Positions 3,236 through 62,636 of a stretch of 64,000 nucleotides of DNA are shown piece by piece. The translations under genes and the position numbers were made by a program. The stretch spans positions 4,340,001 to 4,404,000 of the forward strand of contig NC_089440.1 in the NCBI RefSeq assembly GCF_026210795.1, read 5' to 3'. Under the pieces are notes generated by a model that was given only the letters and a program-made list of their open reading frames with translations, did no database searches and had not been told where the DNA came from. How positions within the stretch are numbered: position 1 is the stretch's first letter; every line of letters begins with the position of its first letter. The DNA is from Rhizophagus irregularis (taxonomy: Eukaryota > Glomeromycota > Glomeromycetes > Glomerales > Glomeraceae).

Positions 3236-5742
3236 CACCAAGTAAAACACGGACTTTACATACACAATACATATTTAGTAAGTATAACACTTTTTTTTTT
3301 TTTTGAAATTCGAATATTCTGTTTTTCCCCAAATTTAAAATGATCATCCTTTGGCTCATTCACCGGACAATTTTAATTTAGTAACTCCGGATTTATCACT
3401 TTATCACGAATAATAAAATGATGACACAATACAACACAATACATATTTTTTAAGATGAACTGATGAAGATCTTAATTAAAAATATCCCTTCGGAGAAATT
3501 TATAGGAAGGACGGAATCGCGCTAAAATATTAATGCAGTAAATAAACAACAAATAGAATGATTTATGGAAGAATAGAATATATACAATATTAAACTTGTG
3601 ATCAATTGATTTTTTAATTATAAATAAAAATGCAAAATTTTAATGCAAAATTATTTCCCTTGTTTTCTTAAAGGTACTTTTTGATTTGTAGGTTTTTCCG
3701 TTATATTTCCTGATTTAAATCCAGTTATTAAACTAATTAAATGCATTGTTTATTGTTTATCGTAAACAAATGCTTCAGCCCGTACACAAATTTCATATTT
3801 TCACACTTTTTTTTTACCCATGGATAAGGATCAGATGTTCCTTATAAAAAAAATACAGGTTGCATTAAAACGTTTCTAAAATATTTTAGCGTTGCCTAAA
3901 ATTATCTTTTTAATCGTTTAAAATTGTTTAGACTTGTTAAAATTATCTTTTATATCTTGAAAGCTTTTTTTGTTTATAGAAATGAGGCGCATGCAGTAAC
4001 ATTTACACACATATATATATATTTCTTTTATGTACTCCCCCAAAAAAATGCATAATATAATCATCTTGCAGATGCCAGTATCTTGGTGTTTGGTTCACAT
4101 AATTGGTTCAATCCAATTACCATAAAAGAAGTAATGGATTTCGTACTTTTTTTTTGTTTAAAAGAATATCATCATTCATAAATTTTATTACGTAATATAT
4201 AAAATCTAATTTTATAATTTTTAAAAAAGATGAATTCTTTTTTTTTTAAATAGAAGATTTGTTTGTTGAGTTTTGTGTTTTTCCGAATTGCATAATATAC
4301 AACACAATGTACTTACTACGTTAAGCAAGTTGTGTGGTGTCATATTATTCGAAATCTATAAAATTTAGTGTTATTGTTTATAGTGTTACAACTTTGATTA
4401 TGAATAGAAAAAAAATAGATGAAACTTAGAATGATCTGTTTTTCTTTTCTTTTATACAAAGAATCCAAAAAAAGAAAATTTTATGGATCCTTTTTATATT
4501 TTACTATTTAAAATAAAAAGCGTAAGCGTACGATAATATTATTATTATTAATGTTACTATAAATTTCATTTTATTCTAGAAATTGTAATCCAAATTGGAT
4601 TTACAAAAAAGTCACTATTCATTATATTTACAGTTCAAACTATATTGTATACTATTCCTTATCAGTATAAAAAATTTACCAAATTCGAAAGCTAAAAAAT
4701 GATAAGCCACAATACTAAATCTAATTCTGCAATTCGGTAACTCTGTAACAAAATTACCGTGAAATATTTGAAACGAAGAAAGAAAACAAAAAAGGGTTTT
4801 CACTCCCTTTTCTATTTTCTTTTTGAGTTTGAAACTTCTCATGCTAGAACATTGATTAATTTGAATTCCAGTTTCGGTAAACGAAAATTCTATGAAATCT
4901 CCTAAAAATTTCATGTGTAAAATTTATCAAACTTTAACTAAAAAGGATAGTTTCATCTAATTTCCTATCTATTCTCCTTTGTTTATCTTTTCTTCTATTC
5001 CCCCCCTTTTTTTTTCTTTAAATAATAATTTTCCTATCGTCTTTTGAAATGAAGGATTTAATTTTAACCTTTACATAAATTTCATTTCCATTCCGCTTTT
5101 TTTCAATCACCTTTAAGATTTCTCTTTCTTTTTAAATTTATTTCATGATATTTAATAATATATATTTAATGATAATTTAATGATAATTTAATGATATTTA
5201 TTGCTTCGATTCTCATTATTACCCAAATTAATTTTCATTGTTTCATGTGAGTATCTATATTGGGCATGTTATGACCTAATTACGGGTTACAGGTACCTAA
5301 ATTATCGAAAATCATTCCCAAAATTATGTTAATTTTTTTTAATGTGTCCGTAATTTAAAATTTTCGATGTATCGATGTTGGAAGAAAATATTTGATATAT
5401 CAAATTATTAATAGACCATAAAATGTGGGCCAGATTATTTTTTGTCGCTAATTCAGAATATTCTGACCTTTAATTAAGATGACGCAAATTTCAATTTTTA
5501 TAAAGTGCTGCCAGTGTAACCTAAATATCGGTTCATGTTACTTAAATGCTATTACGTTTCATATATAATATCGGTACAATTTAAGTGGGACATGGAAAAT
5601 TTATCGGTGCATGCAATTATCGGTACATAGGAATATAGGATATCGGTACATTTGAGGTTTTACTATAATAATAATAATAAAAAGGATTTAAAGGATAGAA
5701 CATAACGTTATTTATGATTTTCAACTACATTACCTACCAGCT

Positions 5743-5816
5743 ACCGCATCATTCAACCGCATCATTCAACCGCATCATCCACCGCATCATCCACCGCATC
5801 ATCCACCGCATCATCC
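5743..5816. repeat. 12-13 bp minisatellite, six units
   Basis: Six consecutive units of ACCGCATCATYC(A), two of 13 bp followed by four of 12 bp. The tract ends at 5816, immediately next to the stop codon (5817-5819, minus strand) of the first small membrane-protein gene. Confidence 0.9.
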
Positions 5817-6056
5817 TTACCACAATAACCTACATAACCACTTTATCCAAGGTTCACATAATTCTAAATCATTCTTTTCAACATAATTTAATGTTATTTG
5901 ACGTTCATTACCACTAATAGCATAAATTATAAGTAATATTCTATCAATTAACATTTTTCGTTGATAAAATAATGATATTAATACAATTAGAGTACCAAGT
6001 ACTATTTTTAGATTATTCCTAATATATTTAATAACTCTATCAAGTTTAAAATCCAT
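5817..6056 (-). CDS. Small single-pass membrane protein, array member 1 (79 aa)
   Basis: I do not recognise the family. The ATG at 6056 aligns with the starts of the four paralogues, so the longer TTG-initiated frame to 6068 was not used. Layout: a short basic N-terminal helix with an N-N-x-K stretch, one hydrophobic segment (about residues 22-36), a basic loop (Y-Q-R-K-x-L-x-D-R-I), the conserved Y-A-I-x-G-N-x-R-x-I-x-L-N-Y block and a short Trp-containing tail (PWIKWLCRLLW). It is closest to the member at 8376-8660 but has a shorter tail that ends against a minisatellite. It could be a truncated copy. A TATAAATA-like run lies at 6207-6214. Function is unknown. Confidence 0.6.
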   Translation of the reverse strand: MDFKLDRVIKYIRNNLKIVLGTLIVLISLFYQRKMLIDRILLIIYAISGNERQITLNYVEKNDLELCEPWIKWLCRLLW

Positions 6057-6189
6057 AATTCTTAACAATATATATATATATATATGAAATGTTGAGAAAA
6101 AATTTGGTACACAATTTTTTATATAATTTTGTGAAAGAATTTTTCAGAAAAGAAAAAGAAAAGAAATTATTATTTTTTTTTTTTCCTTT

Positions 6190-6285
6190 TATTATTCATA
6201 CAGTTATATTTATACCCATTTGGTAATAATAGGTGGATTTAACCTAAAATCGTAAACTTCTTGAAGAAAAACAAGTTTTTAAAAA
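6190..6285 (-). promoter_or_regulatory. Upstream block of array member 1 (divergent copy)
   Basis: Contains TATAAATA (minus strand, 6207-6214) and a weaker match to the block shared by the array, ending in an AAAACTTGTTTTT-like run read on the minus strand. It is the most diverged of the five copies. Confidence 0.4.
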
Positions 6286-6460
6286 TCATCTACTTTTAAA
6301 ATAAATTTAAATTACGTCATCACTAATAAATAATGACACTACATACACATACAGTTTGAATGGCTTAAAAATGTGATAACTTTTTAAATAATTTTAGAAA
6401 ACCCTTAAAAATGCGATAACTTTTAGAAAACCCAACATTTAGTTTACCAACGTATAATCA

Positions 6461-6772
6461 TCATGGTAATCGTTTCAATATTCCACGTAGCCGATTCTTC
6501 AACCAAGTAGGTTTTTGTATGAGGTCCAAAGTATGTTTTAATTCAATGATTAGATTATCATCACCTCGAATAATATAATAATAAAGTATCACTCTCGCAC
6601 GTAATGTATTTCTTCGATACCAAATATATGATGATGATAATATTATGAGAATTACTTTTAAAATTTTTATTATTTTTGGATTATTTCTAATAAATTCATT
6701 AATATGAGGTACATTTCTTATTGTATTTTCAATTCTATTTAACCATCTTTTAATATTGTCAATATAATCCAT
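6461..6772 (-). CDS. Small single-pass membrane protein, array member 2 (103 aa)
   Basis: Paralogue of the neighbours, most like the member at 7159-7452 at the N-terminus (both start M-D-[YF]-[IL]-D with R-W and a basic amphipathic stretch). After N-N-P-K comes one hydrophobic helix (about residues 38-52), then Y-R-R-N-T-L-R-A-R-V, an I-I-R-G-D-D block and a basic tail with PTWLKNRLRG. The Trp-rich tail of its siblings is reduced here to one Trp. The basic loop follows the hydrophobic segment, which would place the C-terminal half in the cytosol by the positive-inside rule (inference). The gene and about 380 bp upstream form a ~700 bp unit repeated at 7159-7830. Confidence 0.65.
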   Translation of the reverse strand: MDYIDNIKRWLNRIENTIRNVPHINEFIRNNPKIIKILKVILIILSSSYIWYRRNTLRARVILYYYIIRGDDNLIIELKHTLDLIQKPTWLKNRLRGILKRLP

Positions 6773-6867
6773 TATATTATTATATTGAATAAAAATAAAA
6801 GATTTTTTTTAAAAAGAAAAAAAAAGATTTTTTTTTTCTTTCACAAGAATGTAAAAATGTAAAATCC

Positions 6868-6975
6868 GTTTATTTATACCCGTTGTAGATTGTTTCGGCC
6901 AAAAACTATAAATGGTAAAATTAAATTAAATTAGTGTGAATTCTGTGAGAAAACCAAAAGTTTTTTTTTTATATT
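6868..6975 (-). promoter_or_regulatory. Conserved upstream block of array member 2
   Basis: Reading on the minus strand there is a GAATTCACACTAATTT-like stretch, then ACCATTTATA, then GGGTATAAATAAACG with TATAAATA at 6878-6871, about 100 bp before the ATG. The same order recurs at 7553-7640 and 8858-8968. Confidence 0.55.
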
Positions 6976-7158
6976 ACATAATTTAATTTTAAAATTTTAA
7001 TAATCAATACTACGCTCTAACGTATTTACATTGTCATAAAATAATTCACAATATAAATTTTCGTTAACTATGAATTATGAATTTAGAAGCATCAGAGTTT
7101 AGAAAACCAACAGTTTTTACCAGTTTACATACAAAACGGCCAATGAGCCCAACGTTAT

Positions 7159-7452
7159 TTACAACAATGGCGGAGAAACCCAATCCGGCAACCACCAGGG
7201 ATTAGGTTTTAATAAGCGATCCAAGTTAAGTATTAACTGGTCGTCTCCTTCAATAACGTGACGCAAAAGTCTTATTCTCGCACGTAATGTATTTTTTCTA
7301 AACAACATATATGATAATAATGGTACTAAAATAATAGTAATAGTTATTGCTGTTCTTGGATAATTTCTAATAAGTACCCTAAAAAACCTTGCATGTCTCA
7401 CTGTATCTTCAATTATATTGAACCATCTTCTAATAATGTCAAGAAAATCCAT
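7159..7452 (-). CDS. Small single-pass membrane protein, array member 3 (97 aa)
   Basis: Same layout as the other array members: N-terminal amphipathic helix (M-D-F-L-D-I-I-R-R-W-F), N-Y-P-R in place of N-N-P-K, a hydrophobic segment of about 15 residues, F-R-K-N-T-L-R-A-R-I, then V-I-E-G-D-D-Q-L-I-L-N-L-D-R-L-L and a Trp-rich tail NPWWLPDWVSPPLL. The L-K-P-N-x-W-W tail is shared with the member at 7851-8114. No other domain is visible. Conservation of frame, start and stop position across five copies, while the DNA between them has drifted, supports real coding. Function is unknown. Confidence 0.65.
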   Translation of the reverse strand: MDFLDIIRRWFNIIEDTVRHARFFRVLIRNYPRTAITITIILVPLLSYMLFRKNTLRARIRLLRHVIEGDDQLILNLDRLLKPNPWWLPDWVSPPLL

Positions 7453-7552
7453 TATATTTATTATATTTGTTTTAACTCTATTTTAAATCGAATAAAAATT
7501 CTCTTTCAGATAAGAGAATTTTTTTTTTTTCAAAATGTAAAATTTTATCTTC

Positions 7553-7640
7553 GTTTATTTATAGATTATTTCAGCAAAAAATATAAATGGTAAAATTAAC
7601 CTAAATTAGGGTGAATTCTTGATTAAAACCAAGTTTTTTT
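7553..7640 (-). promoter_or_regulatory. Conserved upstream block of array member 3
   Basis: TATAAATA (minus strand, 7563-7556) lies about 104 bp before the ATG, followed further upstream by the TTTTACCATTTATA and GAATTCACCCTAATTT parts of the shared block. It is a close match to the block upstream of member 2. Confidence 0.55.
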
Positions 7641-7850
7641 TATATTATATAATTAAATTCTAAAATTCTAATAATCAATACTATGCTCAAGTGTATTTAC
7701 ACTATCGTAAAATAATTCACGAGAACTTATAATATAAAATTTTGATAACTATGAATTATGAATTTAAAAGCACCAAAACCAACAGTTTTACCGGTTTAAT
7801 ACACAATCGGTCAATGAACCCACGTCATTTTTTTTAAGTAAAAACGTTAC

Positions 7851-8114
7851 TTATAGCAATGACCAAGAAACCCAACGCGGCGACCACCACCGGGCGTTAG
7901 GTTTTAATAAACGATCTAACTTAAGTATTACCTTGTCATCACTAATAATAGCGTAATATATTATTAATATTCTCTCACGTAATGTTTTACGTCGATATAA
8001 TACATATAATAATAAAATAGTAGCAACAAGTCTTTTTACTATTTTTGGATTATTCTTAATAAGTTCTAGAATTTGAGATTCTTTTAATAAATAATTTATA
8101 ATATCGTTTATCAT
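7851..8114 (-). CDS. Small single-pass membrane protein, array member 4 (87 aa)
   Basis: Family signature intact: K-N-N-P-K-I-V-K-R, hydrophobic segment of about 12 residues, Y-R-R-K-T-L-R-E-R-I-L-I-I-Y-Y-A-I, then I-S-D-D-K-V-I-L-K-L-D-R-L-L-K-P-N and a Trp-rich tail ARWWSPRWVSWSLL. The N-terminal helix before N-N-P-K is shorter than in members 2 and 3. The conserved segment after the membrane helix is the best-kept part of the family and probably carries its function. I cannot assign one. Confidence 0.65.
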   Translation of the reverse strand: MINDIINYLLKESQILELIKNNPKIVKRLVATILLLYVLYRRKTLRERILIIYYAIISDDKVILKLDRLLKPNARWWSPRWVSWSLL

Positions 8115-8213
8115 TATATATATTTGAAAATTGAACCGTTTTAAGAAATTTTTTTTTTTGTATAATTAGGAAAAAAAATAATTTTATTTTTCAAAAATTT
8201 TAGAATTAATTAT

Positions 8214-8322
8214 CCATTTATATATATATATGTTGTGCAATTATTTCGGTAAGGAAAGTATGTACGAGGAGACAATTATTCTAAATTAGGAGAATTCTTG
8301 ATGAGAAACATGTTTTTCTAAA
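8214..8322 (-). promoter_or_regulatory. Conserved upstream block of array member 4
   Basis: A TATATATATAAATGG run (8231-8217 on the minus strand) lies about 105 bp before the ATG. Upstream of it are ACCGAAATAATTGCACAAC and the TCAAGAATTCTCCTAATTTAG part of the shared block in partly diverged form. Confidence 0.5.
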
Positions 8323-8375
8323 AAAGTTATTATAGTACTGCAATACTAATTTTTTAAGCTACAGATATGCGACTA

Positions 8376-8660
8376 TTATGATGATGATGTTACGCCGATA
8401 ATTTTATCTACAGGCCAACGTACCCACCAAAACCAACTTTTATCTTTAATAGTTTCAATTTCTCTAATTTCCAACCCATGTCTTAAAAGATAATTTAATG
8501 CAATTTGACGGTCATTACCAACAATAGCGTATGATATAAGTACTATTCTATCACGTAATAACCTTCGTTGATTATAAGATAATATTAAAGTAATAGTAAT
8601 AATTGTTACTTTTAATGGATTATTTTCAACATATTCTTTAACCTTGTTAAAATAATCCAT
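8376..8660 (-). CDS. Small single-pass membrane protein, array member 5 (94 aa)
   Basis: Starts M-D-Y-F-N-K-V-K-E, then E-N-N-P-L-K, a hydrophobic segment (about residues 18-28), Y-N-Q-R-R-L-L-R-D-R-I, the Y-A-I-V-G-N-D-R-Q-I-A-L-N-Y block and a tail with WFWWVRW followed by VTSSS. It is closest to the member at 5817-6056 (shared G-N-[DE]-R-Q-I-[AT]-L-N-Y), so the outer two genes form one subtype (N-[DE]-R-Q) and the inner three another (G-D-D or S-D-D). It is the first gene of the array in the direction of transcription. Confidence 0.65.
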   Translation of the reverse strand: MDYFNKVKEYVENNPLKVTIITITLILSYNQRRLLRDRIVLISYAIVGNDRQIALNYLLRHGLEIREIETIKDKSWFWWVRWPVDKIIGVTSSS

Positions 8661-8857
8661 TGTATTTATTGTTTGAAGATTATATTATGAAGATTATATT
8701 ACGAAGATTATATTATGAAGAAGGTTATATTTATTTATCATTTATTTATTTTGTTTTATTTTGGTTTGGTTTTTTTTTTTAAAGTTGAAATAAAAAGAGA
8801 AAAAAGTGATTTTTTTCAGACAAAAGGATTTTTTTTATAGAATTTATTATTGTCCGT

Positions 8858-8968
8858 TTATTTATACTTCGTTGTAATACAAATCATTTCAGTAAAAAAA
8901 TATATGGAATTAATCTAAATTAATGTGAATTCTTGATAAAAAACTAGTTTTTTTAATATTACCAATTC
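8858..8968 (-). promoter_or_regulatory. Conserved upstream block of array member 5
   Basis: TATAAATA (8866-8859, minus strand) sits about 200 bp before the ATG, preceded by ACTGAAATGATTTG, then TAATTTAGATTAATT and TTATCAAGAATTCACATTAA. It is a good copy of the shared block. From here the sequence also matches 13150 onwards, the start of a larger duplication. Confidence 0.5.
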
Positions 8969-9534
8969 CGGAATTCCGTAGAAGTTTTTCATCGATCATC
9001 AACTATCATCACTAATAATTTTAAATTCCGCCTAAACCTAAAATCAGCCAAATTGATCGGCAGCCGCAGCCAAACGGAAACTCCGGTAGCTGTAAAAAAT
9101 TACTAGTTGAATTCAATTGCTATTTGACATCATTTTGTGCCCTTTCAGGACATATTTATCACGCCACAGTAATATTGTGATTTTTGGATATATTAGTTAT
9201 TGGACAGGGATGTTATTATGCATGTTTCATATAAGCTATTAATAATAAGTTTTACGTGACTTTAGATTAATAACAGTTGTATTGTGATTTTATGGATTTC
9301 GGATCCAAGACAAATGTTTTTTTCTACAAAAATATATAACGAGCTCCAATTGCACATGTATATTATTACTTTACTAGTGTATTAAGTTTTTAATGACCAA
9401 ATCCAAATATACCTTAAATTTTTTAAATTTTCAAAAAAATTCTTTTTGTTAAATCTAATAATAACACATGATTTTAAAACTTTTTAGTAAAACTAAGCAT
9501 TCTTTCAATAAAAATTAAATGTTCTTTTAATAAG

Positions 9535-9812
9535 ATTAAAGAAAGAATCTCTCTTATTGATAATTTGAAATACTTCATATTCTTCTATCCTATTATTAAC
9601 AATTTTCTTTTCGTAAGATATTTTGTTTGTTCATACCATAATAACTGTCATATCTTGGATTTTTCTGGTTCCATAAATCTTGTAAACCAGAAGTGACTCT
9701 GCTTAATATGGGAATTTCCATGAAAATAATGAAAATATAAAGCCATTTGGCGTTTGACATTTATGTTCAATATAAGGATCGTTATGATAATCTAACACTA
9801 CGCCACCTAAAT
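9535..9812 (-). pseudogene. Decayed TLDc-domain fragment
   Basis: Read on the minus strand this matches the last ~100 codons of the neighbouring BTB-TLDc genes, from the equivalent of WRS down to the V-F-Q-I-I-D-K-R-F-S region. It has an internal deletion (the part encoding I-I-W-C-K-x-K-G-P-C-F-G is missing), frameshifts and no open frame. No BTB or BACK part is left nearby. Confidence 0.75.
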
Positions 9813-10254: not shown

Positions 10255-11060
10255 GACCGTTGCCAACTGACTCCTTCAAGGTAAAGAAGATTTTGAGGAG
10301 CACTACAAACCATTTGTTTATTATTTATTAAGGTAAGCTAAAGATCCCTGCTTAGCCTTCGGTTTGTATGTGTGTTATGTATGTGTGTGTTTTGTGTGAG
10401 TGCGTAAAACACAGGCTTATAGACAAAAAAAGCTGAAGGGAAGGAGAAACTGGCTTTCCTGGATGAGGGTTAGCCTATGTTTCTTGCTCATTTGTTTGGT
10501 ATCCAAACCTTTCCGGACGCTTTTTTTTATGTAGTATGGTGGTGGTTGATTATTTTCTTCCACCGGTACCAACCATATTTACGATGTTTTTTTAATTTTT
10601 TAGCTTATGTTGTTTACAAACCTTTACAACAGTAAGACTTGATCTCAATTTTATAAAGATTCAAGACTCTTTCAAGACAAAGAAGGTTTTGAGGAGCACT
10701 ACCAACCATTTATTTATTATTTATTAAGGTAAGCTAAAGATCCCTGCTTAGCCTTCGGTTTGTATGTGTGTTATGTGTGTGTGTGTTTTGTGTGTGCGTA
10801 AAACACAGGCTTATAGACAAAAAAAGCTGAAGGGAAGGAGAAACTGGCTTTCCTGGATGAGGGTTAGCCTATGTTTCTTGCTCATTTGTTTGGTATCCAA
10901 ACCTTTCCGGACGCTTTTTTTTATGTAGTATGGTGGTGGTTGATTATTTTCTTCCACCGGTACCAACCATATTTACGATATTTTTTTAATTTTTTAGCTT
11001 ATGTCGTTTACAAACCTTTACAACAGTAAGATTTGATCTCGATTTTATAAAGATTCAAGT
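10255..11060. repeat. Dispersed ~400 bp repeat, two tandem copies
   Basis: Two nearly identical units of about 407 bp (about 10255-10660 and 10661-11060) in direct tandem; a third copy lies at 14720-15078. Inside each there is an intron-like segment: a GTAAGCTAAAG donor (10332 in copy 1), a GT-rich tract, a TTTGGTATCCAAA near-palindrome and a T-rich TTTAATTTTTTAG acceptor (about 10602). I find no open frame on either strand. It may be a non-coding transcribed unit or a non-autonomous element. TATAAAAG runs lie upstream at about 10063-10080. Confidence 0.7.
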
Positions 11061-36406: not shown

Positions 36407-39400
36407 ATGTCAGATTCTGACTATATTCCAAACAAAGAGAAACATACCGTAAAAACTACAAAACCGCGTAAACTAGCTAAACCAACGACTAAAGATTCTT
36501 TTTCAGATGAAGAAAGATATACTGTAAAGACTACAAAAACGCGTAAAATAACTAAACCATCGACTCTTAAAGACGCTTCGAATGTAATGGTAATAGATTC
36601 TTCAGACGAAGAGAAATATGGCGCAAAGGCTACAAAAACGCGTAAACCAACTAAAACAACGACCCTTAAAGAAACTTCTAATATAATGGTATTAGACTCC
36701 TCCTCAGACGAAGAAGACGATGAGAAATATACTGTAAACCCTACAAAATCGCGTCAACAACCTAAACAACCGACTCTCACGACCCCTAAAAACACTTTAA
36801 ATGTATTAGATTCTGACTATTCTTCAGATGAGGAGGAATATACCGTAAAACCTACAAAATCGCGTCAACAACTTAAACAAACGACCCTCACGACACTTAA
36901 AGACACTTCAAATGTATTAGATTCTGACTACTCTTTAGATGAAGAGCAATATGCCGTAAAACCTACAAAATCGCGTCAACAACTTAAACAAACGACCCTC
37001 ACGGCCTTTAAAGACACTTCAAATGTATTAGATTCTGACTATTCTCCGGATGAAGAGCAATATACCGCAAAACCTACAAAATCGCGTCAACAACTTAAGC
37101 AAACGACCCTCACGACCCTCACGACCCTTAAAGACACTTCAAATGTATTAGATTCTGACTATTCTCCGGATGAAGAGCAATATACCGCAAAACCTACAAA
37201 ATCGCGTCAACAACTTAAGCAAACGACCCTCACGACCCTCACGACCCTTAAAGACACTTCAAATGTATTAGATTCTGACTATTCTCTAGATGAAGATGAA
37301 TATACCATAAAACCTACGAAAATTCGTAAACCAACTGTTAAAAAAGCTTCTTCAAGTAAGGCTCCTTCTAGCAAAGCCTCTTCTAGTAAGACTTCTTCAA
37401 GCAAAGCTTCTTCAAGCAAAGTCACTTCTAGCGAAGCCTCCTATAACAAAGCTGCCTCCAACGAAACCTCTTCTAATAATGTCACTTCAGCTAATTCTTC
37501 ATCAAATGGAGCTTCGACTCAATCAAAAAAACCAGTAGAAGAAGTTTATCAAAAGAAAACACAACTTGAACATATTTTATTAAGACCTGATACTTATGTT
37601 GGGTCAGTTCAAGCGTCAACTGAAAAATTATGGGTTTACGACTCGGATAAACGAACAATGGTCTACAGAGAAATTACTTATGTTCCAGGTTTATATAAAA
37701 TTATAGATGAAATCTTAGTAAATGCTGCTGACAACAAAATTCGTGATCCCTCTATGGACACCATAAAAGTTGATATTGATGTGGAATCTGGCAAGATTTC
37801 TATATATAATAATGGTAATGGTATACCCATCGAAATTCACAAAGAAGAAAATGTGTACGTACCAGAACTTATATTTGGCCATCTTTTAACATCTTCTAAT
37901 TATAATGATAATGAAAAGAAAGTTACTGGGGGTCGAAATGGTTATGGCGCCAAATTGACTAACATTTTTAGCACAGAATTTATTGTTGAAACTGTTGATA
38001 GTTCTGCAGGCAAAAAATATCGCCAAGTATTCAAAGATAACATGTCTGTAAAGGAACCTCCAAAGATTTCATCTTACTCAAAAAAAGAGGAATATACGAT
38101 GATCACTTTCAAGCCAGATTTTCAGAAATTTAATATGTTCAATGAGTTTGATAATGATATTGTAGCACTCTTGAAGAAACGTGTATATGATTTGGCTGGA
38201 TGTGTAAGAAATGTTAAAGTCTTCTTGAATGGGGAAAGATTGAAAATTAAAAATTTTAAAGAATATTCCCAGATGTATTTGAGTGGAAACAACGATTTTG
38301 TCGATTTACAATCATCAATTATTTACGAAGAAGTAAATCAAAGATGGGAAATTGCATTTGTACCATCTCCTGAAGGAACATTTCAGCAAATTAGTTTCGT
38401 CAATAGTATTAGTACCTCTAAGGGAGGTACTCATGTTAATTACGTCGCAGACCAGATTGTAGAGAAATTTATGGCAGCAGTCACGAAAAAAGCTAAGGAC
38501 GTAAAAAATATTAAAAAACATCAAATCAAAAATCATATGTGGCTTTTTATTAATTGTTTGATTGAAAACGCGACCTTCGATTCTCAAACAAAAGAATGTC
38601 TAACATTGAAAGCTTCATCGTTTGGTTCAAAATGTAATCCGAGCGAAACATACTTTAATAAATTACTTAAAAGCAACGTAATTGAAAGTATATTGGATGA
38701 TGTCAAACACAAACAAAGCAAGGAACTAAAGAAAACCGATGGTAGAAAGACAGGTAGAATCATGGGTATTGCTAAACTGGATGATGCAAATAATGCCGGC
38801 GGTAAAAAATGTCAAGATTGTACTTTAATCCTTACTGAAGGCGATTCTGCAAAGGCTTTGGCAGTTGCCGGATTTTCTATAGTTGGTCGTGACAATTATG
38901 GAGTTTTCCCGCTTCGTGGGAAATTATTAAATGTTAGGGATGGTACACATAACCAGATTATGAATAATGCGGAAATACAACATATAAAACAAATTCTCGG
39001 ACTGAAACAAGGAAAAGTGTATACTTCAACAGGAGAATTACGTTACGGTCATCTCATGATAATGACTGATCAAGATCACGATGGAAGCCATATAAAAGGA
39101 TTAATTATCAACTTCTTGGATTATTTCTTTCCGTCATTGCTTAAAGTTCCAGGTTTCCTAATGGAATTCATAACGCCTATTGTAAAGTGTACAAGAGGTA
39201 ACACTAAAAAATCGTTCTTTACTTTGCCGGAATTCGCTAGTTGGTTGGAAAATAATGATAACGGTAAAGGCTGGAAAATTAAGTATTACAAAGGTCTCGG
39301 TACGAGTACTGCTGAAGAAGCTAAAGAATATTTTAAAGATCTAAGAACACATAAAAAACCATTCAAAACAATTCAAGAAGGTGAACGTGAATTGATTGAC

Positions 39401-41253
39401 ATGGCTTTCAACAAGAAGAAAGCCGATGATCGGAAGGAATGGTTAAGAAATTATGAACCTGGAACTTACATGAATCACAATGTTAAAGAAATCACGATAA
39501 CTGATTTTATAAACAAAGAATTGATATTATTCAGTCGAGCTGATAACGAAAGGTCTATACCGAGTGTCCTTGATGGTTTTAAACCTGGCCAAAGGAAAGT
39601 TCTTTACACTTGTATTAAGAATAAATATAAGAATGAAATAAAAGTCTCGGCATTAGCTGGTGCAGTTCTAGCTGATGCAGCATATCATCATGGTGATTCT
39701 AGTCTTCAAGGTACTATCATTGCAATGGCTCATGATTTTGTCGGTTCAAACAATATCAGCATTCTTCACGGAGTGGGTCAATTTGGTACAAGAAGTCAAG
39801 TAAGTTTTTATATTTTTTAAAAAATCTAAATATGAAATAATCTGATATTTTTAGTTATGTCACTATAATCACAACAGGGTGGTAAAGATGCAGCTAGTGC
39901 ACGTTATATTAGCATTGCAGTTCCCAAATTGGCTAGAATGTTATTTCACCCTCAAGACGACGTTTTACTTACCTATTGTAACGATGATGGTCAAATCGTT
40001 GAACCTGAATGGTATTTACCTATTATACCCATGATTCTCGTTAATGGTTCAGAGGGTATCGGAACCGGTTAGTTTACAATTATTTTAATACAAAAGTTCT
40101 ATTGTTATAGTTAATTAATATATTATTATTATTATTAGGTTGGAGTACATATATTCCAAATTATAATCCACAAGATATCGTCAATAACTTGAAACTAATG
40201 ATTGATGGTAAAGAACCAGTTCCCATGCACCCTTGGTACCGTGGTTTTCGGGGTAGTACTGAACAGGCAGGCAAAGACAAATATAAAGTTAGCGGTATAA
40301 TCGAGCTGGTAAATAACGGAACAGAAGTTAGGATTACCGAATTGCCTGTTCGTTCTTGGACACAAAATTATAAAGAACAACTGGAACAATGGATTTCGGG
40401 AACAGAAAAAGTACCCGCTTGGATAATTGTATGTTATATAATATAATACATAGATAATTCCTTATATGTAATATCTTTAAATTCTTAAATTTACATTTTA
40501 TTAATTTATATATAATAACTTAGGGATACAAAGAGAATCACACGATAACTAACGTCGATTTTACGGTTCAATTAACCGAAGAAAAATTAAATAACGCTTT
40601 AGAAGAAGGACTTGAAAAGAAGTTCAAACTTAGTACTAACATAAACACTTCAAACATGGTATGCTTTGATGGAAAAGGAAGAATTAAAAAATATAGTTCA
40701 GCTGAAGAGATTCTCCTAGAGTTCTATGATTACAGACTAGAGTATTATTTTAAAAGAAAGGATCATATGCTGAAGGTATTAGAACTCGAAGTTAATCAAC
40801 TCAGAAATAAGGCCAGATTTATTCAAATGAAGATAGAACATAAGCTCGAATTTGAAGGGTTTCGTAAAGCAGAAATCATTAAGTTACTCGAGTCTGAAGG
40901 GTTTGAAAGATTTAGAAATGCCAAGGAAGAGAAAAGTGATGATGAAGATCAAACCGACAATGGTGGTGATGGATATAATTATTTAATGAATACTAAATCC
41001 TGGAGTTTTTGTAAGGAAGAAGCACAAAAACTCATGGACAAAAAAACCGAGAAAGAAAAGGAACTTGCTATACTTCGAAAGAAATCTCCACAAGAAATTT
41101 GGGAAGAAGATCTAGATGTGTTTTTGGATGAATGGAACGTAAGTTATCAAAACTTTAAATATACATATTCTACATTCGTGAAGTAATATTACAACTAACT
41201 ATTAACTTATTTTATAAAAAAAGGAATTATTAAACAGTGATCGCAAAAGATAG
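36407..41253 (+). CDS. TOP2: DNA topoisomerase II, five exons (1505 aa)
   Basis: Exons 36407-39799, 39878-40067, 40139-40428, 40524-41138 and 41224-41253; the sum is exactly 1506 codons. The enzyme passes one DNA duplex through another, using ATP. ATPase domain from about residue 380: Y-Q-K-K-T-Q-L-E-H-I-L-L-R-P-D, ATP-binding E-I-L-V-N-A-A-D-N (about 435-443), G-G-R-N-G-Y-G-A-K-L (about 508). TOPRIM: E-G-D-S-A-K-A-L-A (about 811) and D-Q-D-H-D-G (888). The cleavage domain has G-F-K-P-G-Q-R-K-V-L and catalytic Tyr1141 in A-R-Y-I just after intron 1. The coiled-coil C-gate is in exon 4. Residues 1-379 are a disordered, repeat-rich Ser/Asp/Glu/Lys extension, and the protein stops at D-E-W-N-E-L-L-N-S-D-R-K-R with almost no C-terminal domain. 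The ATG at 36407 was preferred to an upstream GTG. Exon 5 (30 nt) is the least certain; reading through intron 4 would give another short tail. Confidence 0.92.
36770..37310 (+). repeat. Coding tandem repeat in the topoisomerase II N-terminus
   Basis: Units of about 114-120 bp encode S-[DE]-Y-[ST]-V/A-K-P-T-K-S-R-Q-Q-L-K-Q-T-T-L-T-T-type blocks followed by L-D-S-D-Y-S-x-D-E. Two neighbouring 120-bp units (37021-37140 and 37141-37260) are identical base for base. Confidence 0.9.
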
Positions 41254-46663: not shown

Positions 46664-48295
46664 TTATGAACTGCTAGATTTAACAGATAAAAATATAATT
46701 CGAAAAATTAACCAAAATAAAATCAACTTAAGATGAAAGTATGATTTTGACTCACTTCTACTATCAATAATTTGAAATACTTCATATTCTTCTATTTTAA
46801 AATTTTCTCTATTAATAATTTTCTTCTCGTAAGAACGTCGTTTACTTTTACCAACAATATTATTAAGTGGAGAATCATTCTGGATCCACAAATCTCGTAA
46901 TCCAAAGCATGGTCCTTTATTTTTACACCAGATGATTGAAGAGACTCGACTTAATGTAGGAATCGCTCGATTTGTTAGTGAAAATATAAAACTATTTGAT
47001 GTTTTACATTCATATTCATTATAAAAGTCATGATTATATTTAGCACTACGCCAATCCAATTGATTATAACCGCCAATTATTTCATTCGTATCTTGAACCT
47101 TAATGATGACAACAGTTGGTCCCTTATTATCACAACAATCATGAAAGTTTTTAACATCAGATCCTTCCCGACTAGCACGGCTAGCACGATAAATAAGCTT
47201 AAATTCATAAGGTAAATCGTTAAAATGATATGGTTCTCCTTGCTTCTTATCAATCCAACTTGCTATAAAAGCAGCATCTTTAGCATTTATAATCTTAGAT
47301 TCCAAAGGATACGCTAATATTCTTAATGGCAAAACATTATTTGAAGGTTCAGGATTAGGAGGGTTAGGAGGGTTAGGAGGGTTAAGATTTAAGAAATATA
47401 GAATAATTTCATCATCGAGTCCTTGTGGAAGAATATTCTTAAAATCAGTTCTAACTTTTTTGTAATCGTTAGAGGACATTTGAAAGAAACGAACATGAGG
47501 AAGACAATTATGAAGAGTTTTTTCTAAATCCATAAATTTCATTGGCGCCCATTTAGTTAAATCGTCATCTAAAATAGAATCGGTATTTTTGATTCCCCAA
47601 TTAATTACATATTTCCATATTTCAATTTCTTTTAATTCAAGGTAATCGCATTTTAGAAGTTGAATAAGTATAGTTTCATCCATTCTTAAGAAATCTTCTG
47701 ATTCAAAAATAATTTTAGGATTTCTACAAATGAATCCTAATGCAAAATTATATAATTTAGGAAATTGTTTCTGTTGATGAATTTTAATAAAATCTTTCGG
47801 AAATTGCCAATCAGATTCATTTTGAAGTAATTGTTTTTCGAGTTGTTGAACAATGTCACGTAATTCAAGTTCATCTGCTGCGATAATAACATCCACAAGG
47901 TTAAGTTTATTAACTTTATTATCAAAAGAAATTAATCCCGTATAGATATATCTAATTATAAAATTGAAATAAATAAATTTATACATGATTAAATTTATAA
48001 TTCATACATACTAATCACCTTTTAATAATATTAAAACTTACTTTAAAAGAATTTCAAATATCGAAGGTGATATATTAGGTTGTTTGAAAATAATAGGTTT
48101 TTCTTCGCTATTTGCCCAATAATTTAAAAATGCTTTTTGAAAATAATTTGACCTAGCGGATAAGATGATAGAATGTGCTTCAAATTCTCTAACATTTGGT
48201 GTTCTGCCAACTTCAATTTTCACATTATAATCTTCGGAATTTTCAAATAAATTTAAAAAATCTTCAAGTAAATCCGATGTGTGATCGTATTCCAT
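46664..48295 (-). CDS. BTB-BACK-TLDc protein with C-terminal hydrophobic segment (513 aa), gene H
   Basis: Exons 48295-48042 and 47951-46664, intron 90 bp (phase 2); 514 codons. Exon 1: Y-N-V-K-I-E-V-G-R-T and F-E-A-H-S-I-I-L-S-A-R-S-N-Y-F; exon 2 opens K-Y-I-Y-T-G-L-I-S-F-D-N-K. BACK is at about 110-235. A Pro-Asn repeat (N-P-P-N-P-P-N-P-P-N-P) sits in the linker before TLDc, encoded by a 9-bp tandem repeat near 47355-47382. TLDc (about 290-470) has ASWIDKKQGEPYHF, IGGYNQLDWRS and GPCFGLRDLWI. The end is hydrophobic (LILFWLIFRIIFLSV). It shares the K-Y-I-Y-T-G splice junction with gene G and is probably its tandem duplicate. Confidence 0.85.
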
Positions 48296-56519: not shown

Positions 56520-58483
56520 ATAGAAGGGGTAGAATTTACCCAACCTTCAGGAAGTAGCACTTCAGCTGCTTTGATGAGTTCTTCGATAGCTCAGCAACCT
56601 ATACAGACGAATAGTAATATTAACATAGGGCTGGATGCCTCTATGCATGCTCAAATCAACGCAAGTTACCCTGGTCAGAATACAACTTCTAAAAAAGTGA
56701 AGAAAGATGACAGTTGGACTATTATTAAAAAGACTCAACGTTTTAGTATTTTCATTCTGCAAGATAGTCTTCCAGGCAATAATATTATTACTAAGAAAAA
56801 TTTTGTATATAGAAAAATTTCAGATGTGCTTAGGCTAATTTCATTGGCACCAACTTCCATTAAAGGTATTAAGGTAATTTAAGCAACATATGAAACGGAA
56901 GCACAAGCGGCTGAAGTTTGTGCCAAGAAAATTGCAAATGATAATGATATAAGATTTGCTAAATTGGAAGTAATCAACAATCAGCAACATGATAATCTTA
57001 ACGATTATGAAATTAAAATCTGGGATGTTCCACTAGATGTGAATAAGCAGATGTTAGAAGTATATTTGAAAAGTTTTGGACCAATTAAAACCCTCAAATT
57101 TAATGTTAAAAATTTATACTATGAAGTAATAGTTAGATTTAACGGCAAACAAGTGGAAGAAAAATTTAAAGACTTATGATCATTGAGATTTTGCAAGTAT
57201 GTGTTTAGGATTTTTCCATCTAACTTAACCAAGGACGAAAGGAATTTACGTTTTAAATATGAGTTGAAATTAGCTAATTTACCTGTAAGTACATACGCTG
57301 CAGATTTGAAAGATATTATCATACAAATAAAGGCAAAATCATGTTTAAATCTTCAAGAATAGGTTTTCAAAAAATTATGAGAAAGAAAGGTTTGCATTTG
57401 TCTTTTTTGATAATGAGAATGACTTTAATAATGCCCTAGGAAAAAAATTCTCTTTTAACAATCGAGGCTTAGTTTTCGTTAATTATGATGCAGTCACGTG
57501 CCACATATGTGGTTCTCCTTATTATCGAGTCAGAACATGTCCAGAAAATCAAAGGAAAAGAAACATGTTATCAACACATGAAGTTTATCAACAGATTTAT
57601 AGTAGATATGGAGTAAAAGCATCCAGACTAAGTATAGGATTCAGACCATTATTTTCTAGAAATTCACAATATCAATCTGGATAAAAGTCAGAAGGCATGC
57701 ACAATTCGGGTAATTATGAAGTCGAACAAGAAATGCCATTACAAGTGGTCTTTCAAGTTATACTGAGCTGCAAAGAAAATTAAGACAATACCCAACGTAA
57801 GAGCAAATGTTTTAACATCAAGTCAAGGTCCATCTCAATCTTACAAAGGAAAAGGAAAACAACAAGAGATATAAGAACCAGTAAGAAAACCTTGGAATCA
57901 ACAGAATATTAATCCTACACCAGTTAATAATGAGGGTGATAGGCTGAATAGATTGAAACGACAGATGGAAAAATTCATGAATATGATACAAAGATTGAAT
58001 GAGAGGGTTTCAAATTTAGAAATTAATCATATTAATCAAGCTGAGATTTTGAGTAATAGAAAAGTAGAATTAATGTTTGCTAAAGATGATAATACGTTCA
58101 TGAATAATAATAATAAAAAGGTAAAAGAATTTCAACAAACACGTGATATATATATCAAAAAAAATATTTCGCCAAATGTACAAACTCGTACATTATCTCC
58201 TATGGAAGAAGATAGTAAAGTAAATAAAACAGTTGGGACAGAAAAGTTCATATATGAACTATCAACCGTGCTGGGTACATCACCTTCGTCCCCAAAAAGT
58301 CAAGAAGGAAATACACAACGATTAGATAATTTTGAAGCCAGAATAGATCAGGCGTTTAGTATTTTGACAGATATGTCTGGAAAATTTGACCATTTAATGA
58401 ACAACCAAATACCATATGTCAATGAAGACAGGGCTAGGGAATTCAATAACGGAACAACTAACCCCCAATATAATCAACAATGA
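56520..58483 (+). pseudogene. LINE ORF1 (RRM, zinc knuckle, coiled coil), broken
   Basis: Pieces in order: a Ser/Gln-rich start (56571-56882), an RRM-like region (I-K-I-W-D-V-P-L-D-V-N-K, L-K-S-F-G-P-I-K-T-L-K-F), a second half with A-F-V-F-F-D-N-E-N-D-F, then C-H-I-C-G-S-P-Y-Y-R-V-R-T-C near 57500. In a CCHC knuckle the ninth residue should be His; here it is Tyr. The tail (57953-58483) is a Gln/Asn-rich coiled coil. Stops at 56880, 57177, 57359 and 57682 and at least two frameshifts mean no full product. In an active element it would bind the element RNA. Confidence 0.8.
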
Positions 58484-58539
58484 TAGTACAACATATAGAT
58501 ATTTAACCATCTATCACTGGTATTAGGAACATTAATAAT

Positions 58540-59280
58540 ACATTTAAGATAACAACAATTAATGTGTCGGATTAAATACAATACTTAAGCAAGAACAAGT
58601 TTTAAATTATATGAAAATTAATAAGATTAGTTGTTTAATAGTCACAGAAACAAAACTTCAAACTGCTAGTGCGAAAATGATTTATAAAGATTATAAGGAT
58701 ATAACGACTTGGTGGTCATGCGATGATAACAACCATTTTTCGACTGGAGTCAGGATTATAATGAATAACGATTATGCAAAATATGTTATCAAAAAAGATA
58801 TCATTAAAGGTCGAGCTTTAAAACTTACGTTACTGTTGAAAGGAAAGATTCATTTCACAATAATCACAATTTATAACTTTTCAAATAATAGTTATAAAGA
58901 TGAAATTTTGGAATTTTATACGAAATTAGAAGAAATTTTAACAGCTGAAAAAAAATTACAAGCTAAAATAGTCTGTGTTGGAGATTTTAATGCAAGTTAT
59001 GATACAGCGATAGCTCAATAAAGAGCAAATCGAAAAAATTTTTGGAAAGATCGTATTTTTCTGATATTAAAAAAAAACATTATGGTTGATATTAATTTAA
59101 TTTACCATGATAAACCGTTGAATACATGGAAGAGATCAGATAAAAAATCTAGAATTGATTACATATGAGTCACAGAAGATTTAGTACCAGATACTATCTA
59201 CGCGTCTACGAATAAAGTCCACATATTTGAAACTGATCATTCAGCTGTAACAGTATATTTCCAAATAGATGACCTGTTTC
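58540..59280 (+). pseudogene. LINE ORF2, APE-type endonuclease domain, broken
   Basis: T-I-N-V at the start, then after a frameshift near 58565 G-L-N-T-I-L-K-Q-E-Q, I-V-T-E-T-K-L (catalytic Glu), V-G-D-F-N-A (58978-58995), S-R-I-D-Y-I and T-D-H-S-A-V (catalytic Asp-His). In an active element this domain nicks the target DNA to prime reverse transcription. In-frame stops at 59019 (TAA) and 59167 (TGA where W is expected in Y-I-W) disrupt it. Confidence 0.82.
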
Positions 59281-60225
59281 ATACAAAACAATTATTTAAA
59301 AAGAAAAAATATAATAATAACAATTTGAAAGTGGATTATAAGAAAATAGATAGTCAATTATGGGAAACATATGCAGAAAAAATAGAAAAGTTATTGGATA
59401 AAGAAAAAGATATAATTGATAACGTAGAAATTTTGATCAATAATATAAATAGAATATGGAATACAATTCGAGATACGTTTAAAAAAGCTAATAATGAATT
59501 GCTGAAAAAGAAAGGTAACCCGAACAAAGAAGTGCTACCAAAAACAATTGTGTTTTATAAGAGATTTTTACATAAATTATCATATATTTTAACAAATTTA
59601 TTTAATGGAAAAAAAGATCATGAGTTTGAATTTAACTAATTATAGAGAGTGTAAAAAATTTATAGAAAAGCATTATGAAACAATATCAGAAATATGTTTT
59701 AAATTTGCAATAGACATAGATGGACTGCTCGACAAAAATATAAAAGAGTTTAAAGAAATAGTCAAGATAGCCTTTAAATTAGTTCAGGTGAATTTTGCTG
59801 AAGAAAGTAAAATATATAAAGAAGAGAAAATGAAGTTTTATATCCAATGACGGTGTGAGGATCTACAAGATAATAAAAAAAGATTCTTAGATTTCATGTT
59901 GAATAGAAAAAGAAGCAAAATTGTTTTGGATAAAATAGTGATAGAAAAAAATTCAGTAAAACAATTAATTTCAGATGAGAAATTGATAGAAAATGAGTTG
60001 ATCGAACATTTCAGATCATTTGCGGGAAAAAAGTTGAATTCAAATGAAAAGTTAAAAGAAAGATGGATTCGTCAATATAGCCCTAAACAAGACATAAATG
60101 AATGTTGGTATAACGAGGTTATTCAACCTATTAGTAAGAGTGAATGGGACCATATGATTAGACAGCTAGCAAATGATAAAGCGCCAGGAATCTCCCAAAT
60201 ATTGAATGAAATGCTCAAACACATG

Positions 60226-61150
60226 GGAACTTCTAGAGCTCCGAACAGGTCAGCCAAATTCAGGTAACCTGACCTGACCTGACCTGAAATTCAGGTCAGG
60301 TATGAAGATTGACCTGACCTGATTGACCTGTTGACCTGAAACTATTGATTCTACTATATAATAAAAGTGAGTTGCAGTATTGCGATTCACTTTTTTATAT
60401 TGATTTTATATAATAAAAGTGAGTTGCAGTATTGCGATTCACTTTTTTATATAGATTCTATATAAAAAAAAGTGAGTTGCGGTATTGCGATTCACTTTTT
60501 TATATTGATTTTATATAATAAAAGTGAGTTGCGATATTGCGATTCACTTTTTTATATTAATTCTATATAAAAAAAGTGAATCACAATACCGCAACTCACT
60601 TTTTTATATAAAATATATATAAAAAAGTGAATCGCAATACCGCAACTCACTTTTTTTATATAAAATATATATATAAAAGTGAATCGCAATACCGCAACTC
60701 ACTTTTTTTATATAAAATATATATATAAAAGTGAATTGCAGTATTGGGATTCACTTTTTTATATGATTTTAATATAAAAATGTTGAATCGCAATATTTCA
60801 AGAAAAAACGTTGCAAAAACGTTTTTTCATAATATTATATTAAAAAAATGTTTCGTAACGTTTTTTTTTTGATATTTCAATAATAACGTTGCGTAAAACA
60901 TTTTTTTCATAATGTTATATTAAAAAAAACGTTTTGCAATATTTTTTTTCAATATCTTAATAAAAAACGTTGCAAAAACGTTTTTAGTTTTTCATAATAT
61001 TATATTAAAAAAAAAAGTTTTGTACCGTTTTTTTTCAATACTTTAATAAAAATAGTCCTGAAATTTTTCAGGTTTCAGGTCAGGTCAGGTCAAACAGACA
61101 ACCTGATATAACCTGACCTGACCTGACCCATTCGGAGCTCTAGGAACTTC
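60226..61150. repeat. 8-bp target site duplication GGAACTTC
   Basis: GGAACTTC at 60226-60233 and 61143-61150, directly abutting the MITE termini. Removing the element and one copy restores an uninterrupted RT frame across the site (K-H-M-G-T-S-M-K-S). Confidence 0.9.
60234..61142. mobile_element. hAT-type MITE / foldback element, 909 bp
   Basis: Terminal inverted repeats TAGAGCTCCGAA / TTCGGAGCTCTA with an 8-bp target duplication, and TAGAG ends fitting the hAT consensus. Subterminal CAGGTCAGGTC-type repeats occur at both ends (60262-60345 and 61070-61135). The interior is two arrays: about eight units of a GTGAGTTGCxxTATTGCGATTCAC palindrome-like motif (60365-60775), the first four in one orientation and the following in the reverse, then AACGTTGCAAAAACGTT-type units (60780-61060). 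No transposase. Confidence 0.9.
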
Positions 61151-62636
61151 AATGAAAAGTGTCATATTAAAATTAGCAAATTTATGTTTACAAGTTGGTA
61201 ATATCCCTGAAGAATGGAGACATGCGTTATTGTATCCTATCCCGAAGACAATGGATTGGAAATACTCATTAACAAAAACTAGACCAATAATCCTTCTAAA
61301 AATCTTGAGAAAAGTGTTAGTGAAAATTGTTACAAAAAGATTATCTAAAGTTATTGCAAAGCATAATATATTAAAAGGAGGTAATCACGTGGGGCTACCT
61401 GGTGGATCTACAGAGGCACCTCTAAGAATCATTAATACATGTATCGAAGATGCAAAGAAGAATAATAAAGAGTTATGGTTGACTTTCCAGGACCTCTCTA
61501 AAGCTTACGATATGGTAGATATTAAGATGCTTAAATTAGTATTATAAAGAATTAAGATTCCAAAGGTTTTGATCTGTTTGATGATTAACTTATTTACAAA
61601 TAGTAAAAAAAAGTGTTATAAAAGAAAAAAGAATAATGAAACAATATACGTCTATTATAGGAATAGATCAAGGTGAGGTCATTTCACAGCTGCTATGGAC
61701 AATTTATTACGATCTATTGCTCGCAAAAATTAATTCATTAAAAATGGAATATGAAATTGAGCATTGCTTTAAAAGTAATGTACAATCAGAGCAAAGAAAA
61801 ACTCAAGATCAATATATCATCACAGTCATACATGAATAACGTCACATGGATTACTAAAAATAAAGCTCAGTTAGAGCAGATCTTGAAAATTGCAGGTGAA
61901 TTCAACATTATGAATAATATACAAACAAATTATGATAAGTTTGAAATGATAACGAATAAAAAGTTAGATAAAGATATTGTTGAAGTTAATTTCAGATCGT
62001 CAAAAAGAATGGTTAAACCATTAACATCAAAAGAATCTGTGAGAATTTTAGGTGTTTGGATTAATTTAGATTTAAAAACTAATTATGTCTTTAATCAATG
62101 CAAGGATATTATTAAAAGATATAATAAAACAATTAGCTTCAAACAAATAACAGATTTGCAGATGAAATATATATATAATCACGTGATTATTCCTCGTGTT
62201 GATTATAAAGCACAATTGTTAGTTTAGACAAATTCTCAAACAGAAAAATTAAATTCTACCTGTAGATATATGTTTAAAAGAAAAGCGTCATTACCACTTA
62301 CTACTCCTAATAGTATTATACATTCATTATTGGGCTACGCTATCAAAGATATTAATACGATTCAAGCTCAAAGACAGTTAAGTAGATTATACAATCAAAT
62401 GATATCAAAGGGTGTGATGAAAGATATTTTTGAAGTAGATTGTAAACAATTGCAAAGTGAATTATTATTTAATAAATCTCCATTAGCAATATGGAATATT
62501 AGTTTAAAAGATTTACAAGTAAAACATTATTTGTTAGCAATTGCTTTTAGCACTTTTATACGACAATATCGCTTAGTAAAATCGAAGTGGTGTGAAAGTT
62601 AACCAGATTAGGGGGATTAATACAATAGTAGAAATA

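Follow-up and report, generated by a model that had tools for sequence, protein, structure and literature searches.

The DUP240 genes of Saccharomyces cerevisiae, which include KTD1, are reported to form lineage-restricted tandem arrays that encode non-essential membrane proteins and turn over by duplication (PMC9974470, PMC2675101). One account places all but one of these genes away from telomeres (PMC9974470), and the other describes them as subtelomeric with escaped arrays (PMC2675101). Here we analyze a tandem array of five small genes, termed g1 to g5, in Rhizophagus irregularis. The array lies within a 64,000-nucleotide stretch of assembly GCF_026210795.1 (contig NC_089440.1, positions 4,340,001 to 4,404,000 of the forward strand). 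This whole stretch is called the window, and coordinates refer to it unless another contig is named.

As a fungal, lineage-restricted set of tandem genes for putative membrane proteins with duplication turnover, the array resembles DUP240 by description. However, two transmembrane helices and three conserved domains characterize DUP240 proteins, whereas g1 to g5 have one short hydrophobic stretch in a protein of 79 to 103 amino acids. Since two membrane helices are absent, we do not assign the array to DUP240, although this family, and KTD1 in particular, appears to be the best analogue for how such genes live. YBR196C-A, described as a transmembrane-first (TM-first) de novo gene of yeast, is likewise a short orphan open reading frame (ORF) whose DNA is T-rich and whose product has a membrane-prone stretch (PMC7005711); here, in contrast, the genes number five, are under purifying selection and diverged long ago. 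The AGL proteins of Rhizophagus are also small, Glomeromycotina-restricted and encoded by co-located genes, but are described as secreted, disordered proteins with P/G-rich tandem repeats, unlike g1 to g5 (PMC8786786). Finally, the short, moderately hydrophobic helix with a basic flank that is found in signal- and tail-anchored proteins of the mitochondrial outer membrane is suggested here as well (PMC4010795), but in proteins that have no Pfam match above cut-off.

The array seems to be a home-grown gene family of an ordinary sort and not a new kind of system. We give about an even chance to the reading that the tandem genes form a lineage-restricted family and encode short membrane microproteins that are held by a signal anchor, are non-enzymatic and bind or tune another membrane protein. 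A burst of genes restricted to the lineage is reported for arbuscular mycorrhizal fungi (PMC10234402), of which the array would be a compact case. Within about 3 kb, it combines five paralogues that are all intact, one of them a clean intragenic recombinant, with upstream elements that are related; decayed copies elsewhere can serve as internal controls.

Five related genes in a head-to-tail array

The genes and the DNA between them are as follows.

8376 to 8660, minus strand: g5, first gene of the array, ATG-initiated ORF of 94 amino acids; closest to g1 (local score 146); A at -3, G at +4
7851 to 8114, minus strand: g4, ATG-initiated ORF of 87 amino acids; top profile score among the five; A at -3, without G at +4
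7453 to 7850, minus strand: intergenic DNA from g4 to g3, a copy of the g3-g2 intergenic (77% over query positions 21-339)
7159 to 7452, minus strand: g3, ATG-initiated ORF of 97 amino acids; chimera with a g2-like 5' part and a g4-like 3' part (MaxChi break)
6773 to 7158, minus strand: intergenic DNA from g3 to g2, second copy of the duplicated intergenic (DNA alignment with the g4-g3 intergenic)
6461 to 6772, minus strand: g2, ATG-initiated ORF of 103 amino acids; local score 181 against g3
5817 to 6056, minus strand: g1, last gene of the array, ATG-initiated ORF of 79 amino acids; local score 146 against g5

An earlier note on this DNA, made from the sequence alone, had listed five minus-strand genes of 79 to 103 amino acids, and the same ORFs and spacing were recovered. 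They are arranged head to tail, with a transcription order of g5, g4, g3, g2, g1 and start-to-start distances of 546, 662, 680 and 716 base pairs (bp) as derived from the ORF coordinates. All five frames are open and apparently single-exon. The start context has A at -3 in every gene and G at +4 in four of the five, and the T content of the sense strand is 33-39%. The array sits interstitially at about 4.35 Mb on its contig (C12; 5,132,999 bases, or 5.13 Mb), and thus is not located at a contig end. A 12-bp minisatellite, ACCGCATCATCC, present in 6 copies at window positions 5743-5816, abuts the stop codon of g1 (5817).

The five genes are real, related ORFs that form one family, as the earlier note had proposed. 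Local alignment scores exceed those of all 2000 residue shuffles for 8 of the 10 pairs; the weaker pairs are g1/g3, whose score was matched by 6 of 2000 shuffles, and g3/g5, matched by 1 of 2000. Protein identity ranges from 27-44% to g1 and from 34-43% to g4. A family profile run on the window recovers the five genes at E values of 6e-28 to 4e-36, which are not independent because the profile was built from the same genes, and gives E 0.055 for the next-best stretch of the window.

The alignment has eight invariant columns (M, N, L, R, I, I, L and W). The best-conserved block starts at the end of the hydrophobic helix, with 46% mean identity over 24 columns, compared with 32% in the N-terminal part including the helix and 38% in everything after the helix. 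Motifs described previously hold as consensus-like patterns but are looser than claimed, with exact matches to NNPK in two of the five proteins, to RRxTLRxRI in one and to YAIx[GS][DN][DE]xxIxL in two. Trp accounts for 2.9-4.6% of residues, compared with an average of 1.3% among 30 background ORFs, but the tail of g2 has just one Trp.

Selection on the coding sequence

To this family we applied codon maximum-likelihood fits (pairwise, four-gene and two-omega), all with purpose-written code. The four-gene fit comprises g1, g2, g4 and g5, with g3 excluded because it is a chimera (see below). It gives an omega (dN/dS) of 0.40 over 80 columns and rejects omega = 1 (likelihood ratio (LR) 9.15, p 0.0025), with a profile interval of roughly 0.2-0.7; over the 70 gap-free columns, omega is 0.42 (p 0.0039). 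Thus, omega is not near 1 overall, and the coding selection suggested previously is upheld. Whole-gene pairwise omega is significantly above 1 in none of the 10 pairs. When two omega values are fitted to the same four genes, the N-terminal part with the helix has an omega of 0.31 and the part after the helix one of 0.54 (LR 7.34, p 0.007).

Open frames are lost quickly in neutral simulations. Among 3000 copies evolved without insertions or deletions, 11.5%, 2.9%, 0.7% and 0.3% retain an open frame at 0.1, 0.2, 0.3 and 0.4 substitutions per site, respectively. Gaps in the coding sequence (CDS) are all multiples of three in the g3/g4 and g2/g3 alignments, in contrast with intergenic gaps of 1, 9, 4, 1, 9, 1, 12, 21, 10 and 18 bases. 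Given an omega below 1 and the rare survival of neutral frames, the open frames appear to be maintained, on average, by selection on the protein. The broader statement that the proteins are kept while the surrounding DNA drifts is true of the old pair g1/g5, in which identity is 51% in the flanks and 64% in the CDS, but not of the youngest duplication, in which the intergenic DNA (79.6-79.7%) is better preserved than the CDS (66.3-67.0%).

A recombinant gene and the growth of the array

The middle gene, g3, is a recombinant whose front resembles g2 and whose back resembles g4. Of its 77 informative sites in a MaxChi analysis, those left of the break are 33 g2-like and 11 g4-like and those right of it 2 and 31, a split reached in 0 of 20,000 permutations. 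The break maps as follows.

7240 to 7248, minus strand: inferred recombination breakpoint in g3 (g3 nucleotides 205-213), from MaxChi and sliding identity

Because g3 is chimeric, recombination within coding sequence has contributed to the array. The intergenics on either side of g3 are themselves copies of each other (77% identity, E 1e-63), and differ at 40 of 256 aligned bases before the TATA-like element and at 31 of 93 after it. A single unequal crossing-over between the middle of a g4-like gene and the middle of a g2-like gene would duplicate a 3' part, an intergenic and a 5' part, and so create g3. This is the simplest account, from which we infer the order of events; gene conversion is an alternative origin. 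For the 3' part shared by g3 and g4 (codons 69-97), the neutral rate is estimated at 0.53 per site, which is greater than the intergenic divergence. The intergenic DNA is therefore possibly conserved or converted, and is unsafe as a neutral yardstick.

Decayed copies and the search for relatives

The genome of the fungus itself (146,748,485 bases on 32 contigs) was searched with the five members and a typed consensus at E cut-offs of up to 0.001 or 10. Convincing intact members were found by these protein searches in this array only; since the searches score best candidates only, a very divergent member could escape them. The g5 and g4 units are present a second time, decayed by deletions and stops, on another contig (C7:2859081-2859607). 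In the leader of g5, the 14-bp unit TGAAGATTATATTA is repeated 3.4 times in tandem (window 8674-8721), and a remnant of this repeat lies at the deletion joint of the C7 relic. A trace of the g5 promoter was recovered by DNA search on a third contig (C28:2399921-2399994), followed by a broken stretch that is TLDc-like by eye. DNA searches with two upstream stretches pointed to no place beyond the array and these two relics.

The third contig merits a separate remark. At this locus (L041:3430-4260), the g5-type promoter element stands directly before the broken TLDc-like stretch, and the DNA downstream of that stretch resembles, by eye, the DNA upstream of g5.

The earlier note had also allowed for a longer gene of which the five might be fragments. 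Six own-genome searches revealed no such gene: apart from the array and the C7 relic, they returned three matches at E 0.24-1.4. These three weak matches, on C1 (E 0.24), at C28:639836 (E 0.58) and on C18 (E 1.4), were rejected as members, the first two after inspection of the loci.

In Pfam and NCBIfam, nothing scores above cut-off for any of the five proteins. The sole sub-threshold Pfam match, Cu_amine_oxidN3 in g2 (15.2 bits versus a cut-off of 22.6), and an NCBIfam match in g1 (11.5 bits versus 491) are attributed to chance. A sequence search of the PDB with the family profile gave best E values of 1 and 2.1. Scans of prokaryote genomes and viral contigs with g4 as sole query produced 314 and 113 pattern matches, respectively, of which 0 were confirmed; a bacterial, archaeal or viral origin is rejected as far as these g4-only scans reach. 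No description of the family was found in word-based literature searches, which do not compare sequences. The claim that this is no described family therefore stands for Pfam, NCBIfam and PDB, but extends no further than libraries that contain no fungal proteomes. On that same comparison, g1 to g5 would be a real orphan tandem family.

Upstream elements

Related elements precede the genes.

8915 to 8934, minus strand: conserved upstream element of g5, AAGAATTCACATTAATTTAG (motif search)
7601 to 7620, minus strand: related copy of this element, g3 (motif search)
6926 to 6945, minus strand: related copy with 2 mismatches, g2 (motif search)
8283 to 8321: weaker copy, g4
6246 to 6284: weaker copy, g1
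8859 to 8866, minus strand: TATAAATA of g5, 206 bp before the ATG
7556 to 7563, minus strand: TATAAATA of g3, 111 bp before the ATG
6871 to 6878, minus strand: TATAAATA of g2, 106 bp before the ATG
6207 to 6214, minus strand: TATAAATA of g1, 158 bp before the ATG
8215 to 8230, minus strand: TATA-like run of g4, beginning 110-116 bp before the ATG (end of the run read from the sequence)

Duplication of upstream DNA along with each gene, as proposed previously, is clear for g2, g3 and g5 but weak for g4 and g1. On the minus strand of window positions 4801-9400, TATAAATA occurs at the four listed sites only, with 0 occurrences downstream of g1, and therefore is tied to gene starts and not to gene ends. 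For comparison, a mean 5' untranslated region of 116 nucleotides is given for R. irregularis (PMC10234402). The shared elements probably act as promoters, such that each gene would lie behind a TATA-like promoter of its own.

A genome-wide promoter regulon was considered and rejected. Matches to the upstream element with at most 2 mismatches number 70 (35 per strand) versus 31 for a reversed control. Two recurrent variants, with 14 copies each, make up 28 of the 70 and resemble dispersed repeats.

Protein anatomy and proposed role

Each protein has a hydrophobic core of 12-18 residues, as delimited by eye, that is preceded by 17-39 residues and followed directly by QRK, RR, RK, RR or QRR, as read from the sequences. 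Maxima of Kyte-Doolittle hydropathy over 19 residues are 1.63, 1.76, 1.77, 1.19 and 0.93 for g1 to g5. The usual threshold for a membrane helix is 1.6, a value reached by 13% of 30 background ORFs in the window. By this threshold a membrane helix is backed in three of the five members, such that the earlier description of single-pass membrane proteins is plausible for g1 to g3 but weak for g4 and g5. The 15 residues that precede the core carry a net charge of +1 to +5 and the 15 that follow it one of +2 to +6; the C side is the more positive in four of the five proteins, by one charge in three of those. In low-confidence AlphaFold models, g1 and g4 are entirely helical in secondary structure, with one long helix that spans the hydrophobic core.

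A moderately hydrophobic helix with basic residues on its C side is described for mitochondrial signal or tail anchors, although moderate hydrophobicity does not separate mitochondrial from endoplasmic reticulum (ER) anchors (PMC4010795). The sequences of g1 to g5 suggest a common plan, in which a helical N-terminal part would lead to a short helix of moderate hydrophobicity, flanked by basic residues on either side. After the helix would come a basic stretch with conserved blocks of the LRxR and YAIxGDD types, and then a Trp-bearing tail that could sit at the membrane surface. We predict that the helix is a signal anchor that inserts into an internal membrane, either the mitochondrial outer membrane or the ER, and leaves the C-terminal part in the cytosol. 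The product might be a non-enzymatic microprotein that binds or tunes another membrane protein, with partner specificity supplied by the divergent paralogues; the partner-binding role is a guess. The array itself grew by tandem duplication that at least once involved recombination inside the CDS, and its separate two-unit copy on C7 is decayed.

Several observations weigh against this favored account. The hydropathy maxima of g4 and g5 lie below 1.6, and in g1 it is the N side of the core that is more positive. Confidence in the AlphaFold models is low (mean pLDDT 66.9 and pTM 0.35 for g1; 61.5 and 0.28 for g4), which limits what the all-helix prediction adds, and Foldseek retrieved no PDB match for the g1 model. 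The C-terminal tails diverge strongly among members, and a higher omega after the helix is unexpected if it is the tail that does the work. Whole-gene pairwise omega spans 0.25 to 1.10 and is significantly below 1 in only 3 of 10 pairs (g1/g2, g2/g4 and g2/g5). Moreover, neutral distances in the pairwise fits, at 0.8 to 2.5 per site, are near saturation, such that the value of omega is rough.

Alternative explanations

The genes might instead be young and of TM-first origin, having arisen de novo from T-rich intergenic DNA that encodes membrane-prone peptides, and be weakly functional. An origin of this type is proposed in yeast (PMC7005711). It would fit short, apparently single-exon genes with 33-39% T and with no relatives in Pfam, NCBIfam, the PDB or the prokaryote and viral scans. 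However, an omega of 0.40 and the near-saturated distances of the old pairs suggest ORFs that have long been kept, and we consider this explanation unlikely. As it concerns origin, it would not rule out a present function.

Similarly unlikely, and resting on analogy with DUP240 and KTD1, is a conflict or defense family that would give protection at a membrane from invaders, among them secreted toxins, with duplication and recombination as its sources of diversity. If the array were such a KTD1-like defense family, its importance would be wider. The tandem, interstitial arrangement, the chimeric g3 and the relic copies would suit this explanation, and KTD1 is reported to evolve fast across its transmembrane region (PMC9974470). 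In codons 1-59 of g2 and g3, the youngest pair, nonsynonymous differences amount to about 39.5 in 138 sites and synonymous ones to 5.5 in 39, which hints at faster change in the protein. The nonsynonymous proportion, entered as 40/138, exceeds the 40/256 of the intergenic DNA before the TATA-like element (Fisher p 0.0024) and the 71/349 of all the intergenic DNA (p 0.043), with the reservation that intergenic DNA is no safe yardstick and that the limits of the g2/g3 segments were picked after looking at the data. Positive selection is reported for DUP240; here, omega in four overlapping N-terminal stretches of g2/g3 is not significantly above 1, at 1.79 (p 0.44) for codons 1-59, 3.95 (p 0.17) for codons 1-40, 4.37 (p 0.18) for codons 1-50 and 1.76 (p 0.38) for codons 1-68. 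Positive selection in this part is thus not claimed. In g1, g2, g4 and g5, furthermore, it is the N-terminal part with the helix that has the lower omega. A related proposal, likewise drawn by analogy and distinctly unlikely, is a fungus-specific membrane defense or self-recognition family in which intragenic recombination would swap an N-terminal membrane module against a C-terminal module to give combinations such as g3.

We regard it as improbable that the array is a decaying or non-coding repeat whose ORFs are leftovers without a protein product. The relics on C7 and C28 and the AT-rich region speak for decay, but five open frames, a four-gene omega below 1 and gaps that keep the frame in the CDS alignments speak against it. 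More improbable still are secreted effectors, in which the hydrophobic stretch would be a cleavable signal peptide. In favor of effectors, the genes are small, diverged and in tandem, and the fungus is a plant symbiont. Cleavable signal peptides have a small-residue cleavage region; by inspection, none is seen in these proteins, in which the core begins only after 17-39 residues and is followed at once by basic residues.

Fragments of a longer gene, such as the membrane tails of neighboring TLDc genes or part of a transposon, are hardly credible and were rejected: TLDc genes with hydrophobic tails adjoin the array, and one TLDc-like fragment lies close upstream of g5 while another is present at the C28 relic (tails and fragments by eye), but the best other window stretch for the profile (E 0.055) is a 52-codon open stretch at 46795-46950, and the own-genome searches reveal no convincing longer homologue, the E 1.4 match on C18 lying inside a 2014-codon open frame.

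Neighboring genes

The TLDc domain (PF07534) is found by Pfam in 8 of 8 neighboring candidate ORFs and in 0 of the 5 array proteins. These eight ORFs lie at window positions 11203-47986 on the minus strand; two also have a BACK domain, and several have differing tails that look membrane-like and hydrophobic by eye. The short TLDc-like fragment just upstream of the array is a 54-amino-acid ORF at 9596-9760, minus strand (by eye). On the plus strand, two near-identical ORFs of 52 amino acids (10477-10635 and 10871-11029), about 400 bp apart, form a local direct repeat. A DNA topoisomerase II-like gene occupies 36407-41186, plus strand, with Pfam domains in the ORF at 36407-39820 and what looks by eye like its continuation in the ORF at 40656-41186. 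Broken reverse-transcriptase-like ORFs at 57965-62602, plus strand, are probably, by eye, those of a non-LTR element.

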